Shown: piece by piece, positions 12,073 to 15,178 of the stretch
Layout: each line of letters starts with the position of its first letter
Position numbering within the stretch: position 1 is the first letter of the stretch
Source of the DNA: Hyphobacterium indicum
Lineage (GTDB): Bacteria; Pseudomonadota; Alphaproteobacteria; Caulobacterales; Maricaulaceae
Length of the DNA: 64,000 bases
Direction of reading: 5' to 3'
Assembly: GCF_003129605.1 (NCBI RefSeq)
Contig: NZ_QBDX01000004.1
Location: 186,001 to 250,000 of the forward strand
Translations under genes and position numbers: made by a program
Notes under the pieces: model-generated
The model's database searches: none
Told to the model about the DNA's origin: nothing
Seen by the model: only the letters and a program-made list of their open reading frames with translations

Positions 12073-12951
12073 GTGTCCGATCCAGCCGAAAGCCGCATGT
12101 TCCAGACGATGCCCGACGCCGATACACACGCCCGCGCCCTCAAGGCTCTCACACTCTGGTGGGAGGATATGGGCATCGAGGCCGATCCCCTGCCCGTGGC
12201 CCGGCCGAAATTGCCCTCACCGTCTCCCGCGCCAAAATCCCAATCGCGCGATCCGCTGCAAGCGCCGGAAAAGCCCGCCATCGCCACCCCGCAGGCCGCA
12301 CGGGCCGCAGGCTTCGGCACACCCGATGGCGATCCCGAAGATGCGCGCAAGGCGGTCGCAAATGTGCGGACACTGGACGAGCTGAAGGCCGCGATTATGG
12401 CCTTTGACGGCTGTGCGCTGAAACGCACCGCGCGCAATACCGTTTTCTCGCGCGGCAATCCTGCGGCGGACATCATGATTGTCGGCGAGGCCCCGGGCCG
12501 CGATGAGGACGAACAGGGCAAGCCCTTTGTCGGCAAGTCCGGTCAGCTGCTCGACCGGATGATCCGTGCTTCCGGCCTCGACCCGGAAACAGACGTCTAT
12601 ATCTCCAACATTCTCAACTGGCGCCCGCCCGGCAACCGCACCCCCTCGACCGAGGAAATCGCCATCTGCCTGCCCCTGATCGAGCGCCATATTGCGATCG
12701 CACAACCGAAAGTGCTGGTCTTCGCCGGCGGGGTCTCGGCGCAAGCCCTCCTGCGCGCCACCACCGGCATCATGAAGCTGCGCGGCCGCTGGGCCGAATA
12801 CCGTTTCAAGGACGCGGACGGCGAAGCCGGTGACCACATCCCCGCCATGCCGCTTTTCCACCCGGCCTTCCTCCTCCGCCGCCCGCAGGAAAAGGCCCGC
12901 GCCTGGCGCGACTGGCTGGAAGTGGTGAAGAAGGTGGAGGGGGCGGACTAA
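12073..12951 (+). CDS. uracil-DNA glycosylase, family 4-like, lacking two cluster cysteines
   Basis: The C-terminal 190 residues are a family 4/SPO1-polymerase-related UDG domain: IMIVGEAPGRDEDEQGKPFVG (uracil-binding water-activating loop and following Phe), SNILNWRPPGNRTP, and a HPAFLLRRP motif with the catalytic-loop His. The first 110 residues are a low-complexity proline/alanine-rich extension. Canonical family 4 enzymes bind a 4Fe-4S cluster with CxxC and two later Cys. Here CxxC reads FDGC and the KCRPP Cys is Trp (NWRPP), so only two of four ligands remain. Cluster-free alphaproteobacterial relatives are known, so this is probably an active variant. The GTG at 12073 is the chosen start. 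Confidence 0.88.
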   Translation: MSDPAESRMFQTMPDADTHARALKALTLWWEDMGIEADPLPVARPKLPSPSPAPKSQSRDPLQAPEKPAIATPQAARAAGFGTPDGDPEDARKAVANVRTLDELKAAIMAFDGCALKRTARNTVFSRGNPAADIMIVGEAPGRDEDEQGKPFVGKSGQLLDRMIRASGLDPETDVYISNILNWRPPGNRTPSTEEIAICLPLIERHIAIAQPKVLVFAGGVSAQALLRATTGIMKLRGRWAEYRFKDADGEAGDHIPAMPLFHPAFLLRRPQEKARAWRDWLEVVKKVEGAD

Positions 12952-13238
12952 CACCCAACATCCTTTCAACATTTTACATCGTCATTCTCCGGCTTGACCG
13001 GAGGATCTGAACCCAGAGCGCCCGGCAAAGAGGTCCTCCGGTTAAACCGGAGGATGACGCGCGTTGACGTTCGCACGGATGACGGAGTGGGTGGTACTTC
13101 CCGCACTATTCGCACCCATGCGTCACCCGCTCCCGCAAGGGTGAGGGGCAAAGCGCGACGGCGCGCCCGCAGCGTTTCCAGCTTGCCTGGAATAAGCGAG
13201 GAGCGACGGTCCGGATGGACCGGAGTATCAGCATAAGT
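12952..13238. repeat. 326-base gene-free stretch with paired CCGGAGG hairpins
   Basis: There is no convincing gene here. Two hairpins, CTCCGGCTTGACCGGAG at 12987-13003 and CCTCCGGTTAAACCGGAGG at 13035-13053, are bracketed by CGTCAT (from 12980) and ATGACG (to about 13059), making one composite inverted repeat. A second structured part at about 13121-13157 (CACCCGCTCCCGCAAGGGTGAG) and a small TTCCAGCTTGCCTGGAA hairpin at 13176-13192 follow. Relatives of the first type recur at 14434-14490. Confidence 0.65.
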
Positions 13239-13253
13239 GTTCTTGATTTGTTC
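13239..13253 (+). promoter_or_regulatory. LexA (SOS) box, GTTC-N7-GTTC
   Basis: The sequence GTTCTTGATTTGTTC matches the alphaproteobacterial LexA operator GTTC-N7-GTTC exactly. It ends 24 bases before the ATG of the radical SAM gene, a normal operator position. The match is seen directly; repression by LexA is inferred. Confidence 0.7.
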
Positions 13254-13277
13254 GCTTGATAGGAACATAATCCTGTC

Positions 13278-14405
13278 ATGTCGAAAGCCCCTCGCACGCC
13301 ACCCTGCCTGAACGCCGATCTCACCGGTGACCCCCTGCCCGCGCCCCTGCAGCCACGCGGCCGCGGCGCGCGCTCCAACCGCAGCAACCGCTTCGAGGAC
13401 AAGGCGTATGAGCCTTTCGACGATGGCTGGCGCGACACCGACCCGCAGCCGGAACAATTGCGTACGGTTACGCTGATTGATTCCTCACGCTCCATCGTCA
13501 CGCGCAATCATTCGCCGGATATTTCCTTCAACCAGTCGATCAACCCCTATCGCGGCTGCGAACATGGCTGTGTCTATTGTTATGCCCGGCCCAGCCACGC
13601 CTATTGGGGCTATTCGCCGGGCCTTGATTTCGAAAGCGTCATCTTCAAGAAGCCCGAGGCCGCGAAACTGCTGGTCCGCACCTTCATGGACCGTAATTAC
13701 CGGCCCGAGCCCATTGTGATCGGGGCCAATACCGATTGCTATCAACCGGTCGAACGCAAGGAGGAAATCACCCGCGATATTCTGAAAGTCTGTGCGGAAT
13801 TCCACCATCCGGTCAGCGTCATCACCAAGTCCGCGCTGATCCTGCGCGACCTCGACATCATCGCGCCGCTGGCGAAAAAGGGCCTGTTCCGCGCCGCCAT
13901 CTCCATCACCACGCTGGACCGCAAGCTGGCACGCGACATGGAACCGCGCGCCGCCACGCCGTCGCGGCGGCTGGAGACGGTGAAACAGCTCGCCGGGGCC
14001 GGCATTCCCGTCACCGTCATGGCGGCGCCGATGATCCCGGCGCTCAATGACCGCGAGCTGGAAGCCATACTGCAGGCCGCCGCCGAAGCCGGGGCCGTCT
14101 CGGCCGGTTATGTGCTCCTGCGCCTGCCCATGGAGATCAAGGGACTGTTCAAGGAATGGCTGGCAACGACGCGGCCGGATTCAGCCTCGCACGTCATGTC
14201 GCTGGTGCGTCAGACCCGCGGCGGTGCGGAATATGATTCAGCGTTCGGGAAAAGGCAGCGTGGCGACGGCCCCTATGCCCGCCTCCTCGCCAGCCGCTTC
14301 CGGCGCGCGATTGAACGCTATGGCCTGAAGACGCGCGGCCCGGGCCTGCGCTGTGACCTCTTCGAACGGCCGCTCGGCCACGGCAACCAGCCGAGCCTGT
14401 TCTAG
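13278..14405 (+). CDS. PA0069-family radical SAM protein (SplB-like)
   Basis: A 375-residue radical SAM enzyme. The cluster motif is CEHGCVYC within NPYRGCEHGCVYCYARPSH near residue 95, followed by GTNTD-like GANTDCYQPVE and KSALILRDLDI elements typical of the PA0069/spore photoproduct lyase-like group. Its reaction is not known; a DNA-lesion repair role has been suspected from SplB similarity. The LexA box just upstream supports a DNA-damage link here. RNase HII follows on the same strand after about 200 bases containing repeats. Confidence 0.85.
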   Translation: MSKAPRTPPCLNADLTGDPLPAPLQPRGRGARSNRSNRFEDKAYEPFDDGWRDTDPQPEQLRTVTLIDSSRSIVTRNHSPDISFNQSINPYRGCEHGCVYCYARPSHAYWGYSPGLDFESVIFKKPEAAKLLVRTFMDRNYRPEPIVIGANTDCYQPVERKEEITRDILKVCAEFHHPVSVITKSALILRDLDIIAPLAKKGLFRAAISITTLDRKLARDMEPRAATPSRRLETVKQLAGAGIPVTVMAAPMIPALNDRELEAILQAAAEAGAVSAGYVLLRLPMEIKGLFKEWLATTRPDSASHVMSLVRQTRGGAEYDSAFGKRQRGDGPYARLLASRFRRAIERYGLKTRGPGLRCDLFERPLGHGNQPSLF

Positions 14406-14433: not shown

Positions 14434-14490
14434 CCCTCCGGCTTGACCGGAGGGGCTCTTTGACATCGAGATCGTCCGGTCAAGCCGGAC
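14434..14490. repeat. pair of CCGG-hairpin repeats between radical SAM gene and rnhB
   Basis: CCCTCCGGCTTGACCGGAGGGG at 14434-14454 and GTCCGGTCAAGCCGGAC at 14474-14490 form two short hairpins of the same type as those at 12987-13053. Slightly downstream, about 14516-14558 resembles a decayed copy of the CCTCATCCTGAGG-type palindrome at 268-304. No T-run follows, so termination is doubtful. Confidence 0.6.
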
Positions 14491-14608: not shown

Positions 14609-15178
14609 ATGGACAGAACAGACACCATCGCCGGCATCGACGAGGCCGGCCGCGGGCCGCTGGCCGGGCCGGTGGTGGCGGCGGCCGTGATATTGCGGGA
14701 GCCCATCGAGGGGCTGAACGATTCCAAGAAGCTGAGCGAAAAACGCCGCGTCGCACTGGCGCGCGAGATCCGCGACACCGCCCTGTTCGGCATCGGCATT
14801 GCCGAGCCGGAAGAAATCGACCGTATCAATATTTTGCAGGCGACCCTGGTGGCCATGCGCCGGGCCGCCCTCAATCTCGGCGAAATCCCGGCCGAATTCC
14901 TGGTCGACGGCAATCGCACGCCCGGCCAGCTGCCCGCCACTGCCAGATTTATCATTGGCGGGGACGGCCTCGAACCGGCCATATCCGCCGCCTCCATCAT
15001 CGCCAAGACCGTCCGCGATGATCTGATGATCCGGGCCGCAGAACGTTGGCCCGCTTACGGATTCGAGGGCCATAAGGGCTATGGCGCGCGCACGCATCTG
15101 GAGGCGATCGCCACGCACGGCCCCTGCCCGATCCACCGCATGAGTTTTTCACCCATGCGCCAACCCGCATTCGTTTAA
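14609..15178 (+). CDS. rnhB: ribonuclease HII
   Basis: 189 residues with the RNase HII active-site motif GIDEAGRGPLAGP near the N-terminus, the DSKKLSEKRR element, and the C-terminal EGHKGYGARTHLEAIATHGPCPIHR signature in the expected order. It removes ribonucleotides from DNA and RNA-DNA hybrids. The ATG at 14609 fits the family start. Its TAA stop codon lies inside the CtrA-like box of ccrM. A second RNase H (rnhA) occurs 20 kb away. Confidence 0.95.
   Translation: MDRTDTIAGIDEAGRGPLAGPVVAAAVILREPIEGLNDSKKLSEKRRVALAREIRDTALFGIGIAEPEEIDRINILQATLVAMRRAALNLGEIPAEFLVDGNRTPGQLPATARFIIGGDGLEPAISAASIIAKTVRDDLMIRAAERWPAYGFEGHKGYGARTHLEAIATHGPCPIHRMSFSPMRQPAFV

Follow-up and report, generated by a model that had tools for sequence, protein, structure and literature searches.

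The SplB protein of Bacillus and Geobacillus, spore photoproduct lyase (SPL), is regulated by sporulation, in contrast to the PA0069-family gene analyzed here, for which regulation by LexA is predicted. The gene PA0069 was reportedly among the LexA-dependent genes of P. aeruginosa in a study from 2006. Of the four cysteines that are conserved in SPL, three belong to the cluster motif and the fourth, Cys141, is the hydrogen donor; Tyr99 serves as a radical relay (PMC3742179). Sanchez-Alberola et al. predicted in 2012 by comparative genomics a LexA-regulated splB (COG1533) for multi-chromosome alpha- and betaproteobacteria, found that the motif differs between the two classes, and termed the function photoreactivation (PMC3323433). 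SOS regulation of SplB (COG1533) in several species was also reported (PMC8565304). A likeness is also found in Streptomyces venezuelae, where the LexA ChIP/RNA-seq table contains the radical SAM protein vnz_31145; an SOS box lies 61 nt upstream of the start of its gene, and ChIP shows enrichment of LexA (PMC9380542). We compare it as a radical SAM gene in general.

The window, i.e. the whole 64-kb stretch of Hyphobacterium indicum DNA that was analyzed, contains on its forward strand the gene of a PA0069-family radical SAM protein with 375 residues (13278-14405). It is preceded on the same strand by the predicted LexA operator GTTCTTGATTTGTTC (13239-13253), of the alphaproteobacterial direct-repeat type GTTC-N7-GTTC, and 24 nt separate this box from the ATG at 13278. 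The first-pass annotation had reported an exact box with this spacing, and its sequence, coordinates and distance were all correct. It had also named the PA0069 family, which agrees with the NCBIfam model NF033668 (rSAM_PA0069) matching residues 27-375 with 514.7 bits at a cut-off of 360. LexA control of such genes was predicted before (PMC3323433), and the regulatory finding is therefore not new. The 2012 study made the same regulatory claim for multi-chromosome species only, found no gammaproteobacterial case and named the product a photolyase. What we add is the breadth of conservation of the box, with many more genera, other Pseudomonadota and a switch of the motif by lineage over a large sample, as well as the geometry of operator, −35 element and probably leaderless start, and evidence against SPL chemistry in form of the missing catalytic residues. 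True SPL occurs in 2 of 150 Pseudomonadota genomes, and Agrobacterium carries a PA0069-type gene with the box; the splB of the 2012 study is therefore very probably a member of the PA0069 family.

Taken alone, the bare GTTC-N7-GTTC pattern is at chance level and uninformative. It occurs once in the window compared to an expected 1.56, and genome-wide (2.79 Mb) 48 times compared to 37 times for the reversed pattern, which is a weak enrichment. These counts, with approximately 1.6 matches expected per window, are the argument for regarding the box as a chance match before a gene outside LexA control. We give this reading hardly any probability and reject it on the conservation data: position and sequence of the box are kept across the class, and in other classes a different LexA operator is found in its place. 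It is the comparison across orthologues that makes the box decisive. A search of the genome with the 15 bases of GTTCTTGATTTGTTC gave no other site with fewer than two mismatches.

The motif could also be compared to the LexA regulon of the same genome. Upstream of the lexA gene (C2:282146-282820), at a distance of 41 nt from its start, lies the box GTTCTATGAGTGTTC, with a second, imperfect box GTTTCCGATTTGTTC between GTTCTATGAGTGTTC and the gene. Exact GTTC-N7-GTTC boxes are located 69 nt before recA, between the divergent genes ssb and uvrA, and before comM/yifB. From its presence at lexA, recA, uvrA/ssb and comM it follows that GTTC-N7-GTTC is the motif of the resident LexA. A further copy, GTTCTTATCTTGTTC, lies at C2:529116-529130, with a gene for a ROK-type kinase on one side and a gene for a divK-like response regulator on the other, and is possibly another LexA target with a link to the cell cycle.

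Absence of the box in front of orthologues had been named in the first-pass annotation as an observation that would refute LexA control; instead, we found the box to be kept in all three sets of loci that were compared. Within the order, the gene was found in 68 out of 99 genomes, and an exact box is present in 61 of these 68 orthologous loci, in most cases 23-25 nt from the start. The box is retained in these relatives where protein identity drops below 50% and the bases around it have diverged. The seven remaining loci comprise one truncated at the end of its contig, one with a broken gene and its box further upstream, three with one mismatch in the box (L066, L072 and L073), and two with no recognisable LexA box upstream (L075 and L077). 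In one relative (L050) the radical SAM gene is in pieces, and the LexA box is retained before the first piece. The phylum-wide sample, in which 177 out of 398 genomes possess the family, added further alphaproteobacterial loci, of which 42 out of 50 have an exact match in the 250 bp that were scanned. In a third set, taken from contigs of other genomes, 68 out of 80 loci gave the exact box, and outside this position these loci match the pattern at a rate of 0.37% per 260 bp. The genera with the box include Agrobacterium, Bradyrhizobium, Caulobacter, Brevundimonas and Azospirillum.

Outside the Alphaproteobacteria the motif changes. Most beta- and gammaproteobacteria have the palindrome CTGT-N8-ACAG as their LexA operator. 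This palindrome is present in exact form in 23 out of 40 loci from the other classes of Pseudomonadota, where GTTC-N7-GTTC occurs in none of the 40, and it is absent in exact form from all 50 alphaproteobacterial loci over the same 250 bp. Fisher tests of motif against class gave p values of about 1e-17 for GTTC-N7-GTTC and 6e-11 for CTGT-N8-ACAG, which overstate independence as related genomes were counted; the conclusion holds without these values. A promoter element that tracks the specificity of the repressor by lineage is hard to explain other than by LexA control, and on this comparative basis we consider SOS control of the radical SAM gene very likely. One locus with neither operator type (L167) carries TTAGCAATAATACTAA, which we take to be similar to the LexA box of Xanthomonas; this is a single case. 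Several gammaproteobacterial lineages have orthologues without a recognisable LexA box. Together with the two such loci in the order, this means that SOS control is not universal. Six of the non-alphaproteobacterial loci without a LexA box (L169, L174, L177, L198, L199 and L203) have a TGAGAC-type −35 element in common, and their ATG follows after a short distance, which suggests that they use a different, perhaps constitutive, promoter.

The position of the box relative to the promoter was analyzed as well. Scanning 12950-13400 for promoters revealed a single promoter-like site (0.1 expected), with a probable −35 element TTGATT at 13243-13248, inside the LexA box, and a probable −10 element CATAAT at 13266-13271, both on the forward strand and separated by 17 nt. 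To see how general this arrangement is, 162 distinct orthologue regions were aligned on the box. TTG occupies box positions 5-7 in 77% of them, a TAnnnT motif is most frequent at offsets 26/27, counted from the box (54 out of 162, compared to 12 for the best shuffle at any offset), and ATG or GTG is found at offsets 38-40 in 101 out of 162. The −10 element of this conserved promoter ends 6-8 nt before the ATG, and a Shine-Dalgarno-like tetramer is present in only 16 of the 115 regions that have a nearby ATG. We infer from this geometry that the operator also serves as the −35 element of the radical SAM promoter, and that transcription probably begins on or right next to the start codon, leaving an mRNA that is leaderless or nearly so. 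Both features together would explain the constant 24-nt spacing between box and ATG.

Regarding the protein, the Pfam scan returned Radical_SAM alone. The nearest sister NCBIfam model is that of the actinobacterial Rv2578c family (NF038135), to which the protein does not belong, as its 206 bits stay below the cut-off of 430. A phmmer search with the single protein against PDB sequences gave no match, and a profile search gave weak matches to SkfB and NifB only; the link to SPL therefore rests on the fold search. The AlphaFold model, built from 37 sequences, has a pLDDT of 82.9. In the fold search SPL entries top both lists, with Z scores of 19.4-19.9 for the top six over 262-272 residues at 15-17% identity, and the next family follows at Z 15.5. 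The best match is to SplB of the PDB 4FHC series (Z about 19.9, 269 residues, 3.4 Å), and both proteins have the CxxxCxxC motif with a tyrosine beside it. The first-pass annotation had called the family SPL-like and without assigned substrate; the fold agrees with this description, and the catalytic cysteine of SPL is absent.

This absence is best seen in the alignment of 180 PA0069-family sequences. The three cysteines of the CxxxCxxC motif for the [4Fe-4S] cluster and SAM (C94, C98 and C101; 13557-13580, forward strand) are the only highly conserved ones, and positions 147-157 contain no conserved cysteine. Tyr100, which corresponds to Tyr97 of SPL, is invariant. The position equivalent to Tyr99 of SPL is occupied by Phe in 124 and by Tyr in 55 of the 180 sequences, the protein from the window itself having Tyr102. 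An hhalign comparison to a genuine SPL (L328) aligned only the C-terminal half and provides no residue-by-residue equivalent of Cys141. While the placement of Cys141 was made by alignment at 16-18% identity, the lack of a fourth conserved cysteine is independent of that alignment. With no fourth conserved cysteine and a Tyr99 position that is mostly Phe, the family therefore lacks the hydrogen-return relay of SPL and, in spite of the SPL-like fold, should not be classified as SPL.

These residues bear on the proposal of 2012 that the gene is SOS controlled and its product performs true SPL-type photoproduct reversal, an SOS-regulated photoreactivation (PMC3323433). The nearest solved fold is indeed that of SPL, and the cluster motif and the first tyrosine are invariant. 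SPL requires Cys141 (PMC3742179), however, and the family has neither a conserved counterpart to it nor a consistently kept relay tyrosine. The Pfam SPL family PF20903 matches neither the protein nor any other part of this genome. Spore photoproduct moreover forms in dormant spores, and these bacteria are not known to form spores. As SPL works without light, photoreactivation is in any case a loose term. We therefore regard true SPL activity as quite improbable. Judged from sequence and model, the PA0069 protein is probably not an SPL, and instead resembles SPL in fold and acts on another lesion. “DNA repair photolyase SplB”, as the family is commonly labeled, is likely a misnomer with regard to its chemistry.

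The gene neighborhood was analyzed for further indications of function. Downstream of the radical SAM gene lies the RNase HII gene rnhB (14609-15178, forward strand; NF000595, 233.9 bits), a conserved neighbor that follows on the same strand in 87 out of 87 loci with both genes inside the fetched flank. The order radical SAM gene, rnhB and often then ccrM, on one strand, represents a widespread alphaproteobacterial neighborhood (L010-L039, L115-L144 and L235-L314). In 23 of the 87 loci the gap between the first two genes is at most 30 nt, with the earliest start taken, and with so short a gap RNase HII may come under SOS control as well. In the window the gap measures 203 bp and contains palindromic repeats; an SOS operon with rnhB was for this reason rejected for Hyphobacterium indicum, and co-transcription of the two genes is unlikely here. 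Upstream lies a family 4 uracil-DNA glycosylase (UDG) gene (12073-12951, forward strand; TIGR00758, 185.2 bits), which according to the neighbor tally is found at this place in this genus and some relatives. It has no LexA box of its own, the scan of the window having returned no second GTTC-N7-GTTC. The synteny with RNase HII fits a role of the radical SAM enzyme in repair.

An SOS-controlled enzyme could also modify RNA, protein or a small molecule, e.g. to protect translation or metabolism during damage. The radical SAM fold by itself leaves the substrate unfixed, and fold matches at Z 13-15 were also obtained to radical SAM enzymes that modify RNA or protein. SPL nevertheless stands 4 Z units above every other family, and the radical SAM gene has DNA-repair genes as neighbors, with RNase HII on one side and, in this genus, UDG on the other. 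We consider a substrate of this kind unlikely, and a DNA-damage-related function of the PA0069 enzyme likely.

The mechanism we favor combines these aspects. LexA bound to the box would cover the −35 element of the one promoter that is recognisable for this gene, and would thus block transcription. Upon DNA damage, activated RecA would lead to self-cleavage of LexA, and the probably leaderless radical SAM mRNA would be made. The enzyme, with its SPL-like fold, would most likely use a 5'-deoxyadenosyl radical to process damaged nucleotides or DNA; its target lesion or its chemistry would be one for which the hydrogen-donor cysteine of SPL is dispensable. As a whole, the explanation by a working LexA operator and a radical SAM enzyme of SPL-like fold acting on another lesion or by another chemistry appears to us well founded and probable. 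More tentatively, and as one possibility, the PA0069 family could represent a distinct SOS-induced 4Fe-4S radical SAM enzyme that is widespread in non-sporing Pseudomonadota, reverses a lesion different from spore photoproduct and is possibly connected to ribonucleotide excision repair through the adjacent RNase HII.

The family is present in more than 40% of the sampled Pseudomonadota genomes and has no assigned substrate. The predicted use of at least two unrelated LexA operators in its control is strong evidence, based on selection, that cells with damaged DNA need it. Together with the missing SPL cysteine, SOS control leads to a concrete question that can be assayed, namely on which lesion the PA0069 enzyme acts.

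Cargo of a phage was considered as an origin of the gene and rejected, as only 13 matches to viral contigs were obtained, and three of the four closest reach a contig end. We further observed paired palindromic repeats, CTCCGGCTTGACCGGAG and variants of it, on both sides of the radical SAM gene (window positions 12987-13052 and 14436-14490). With 11 exact copies of CTCCGGCTTGACCGGAG in the genome compared to none for the reversed control, these repeats look like a dispersed element of the REP type.
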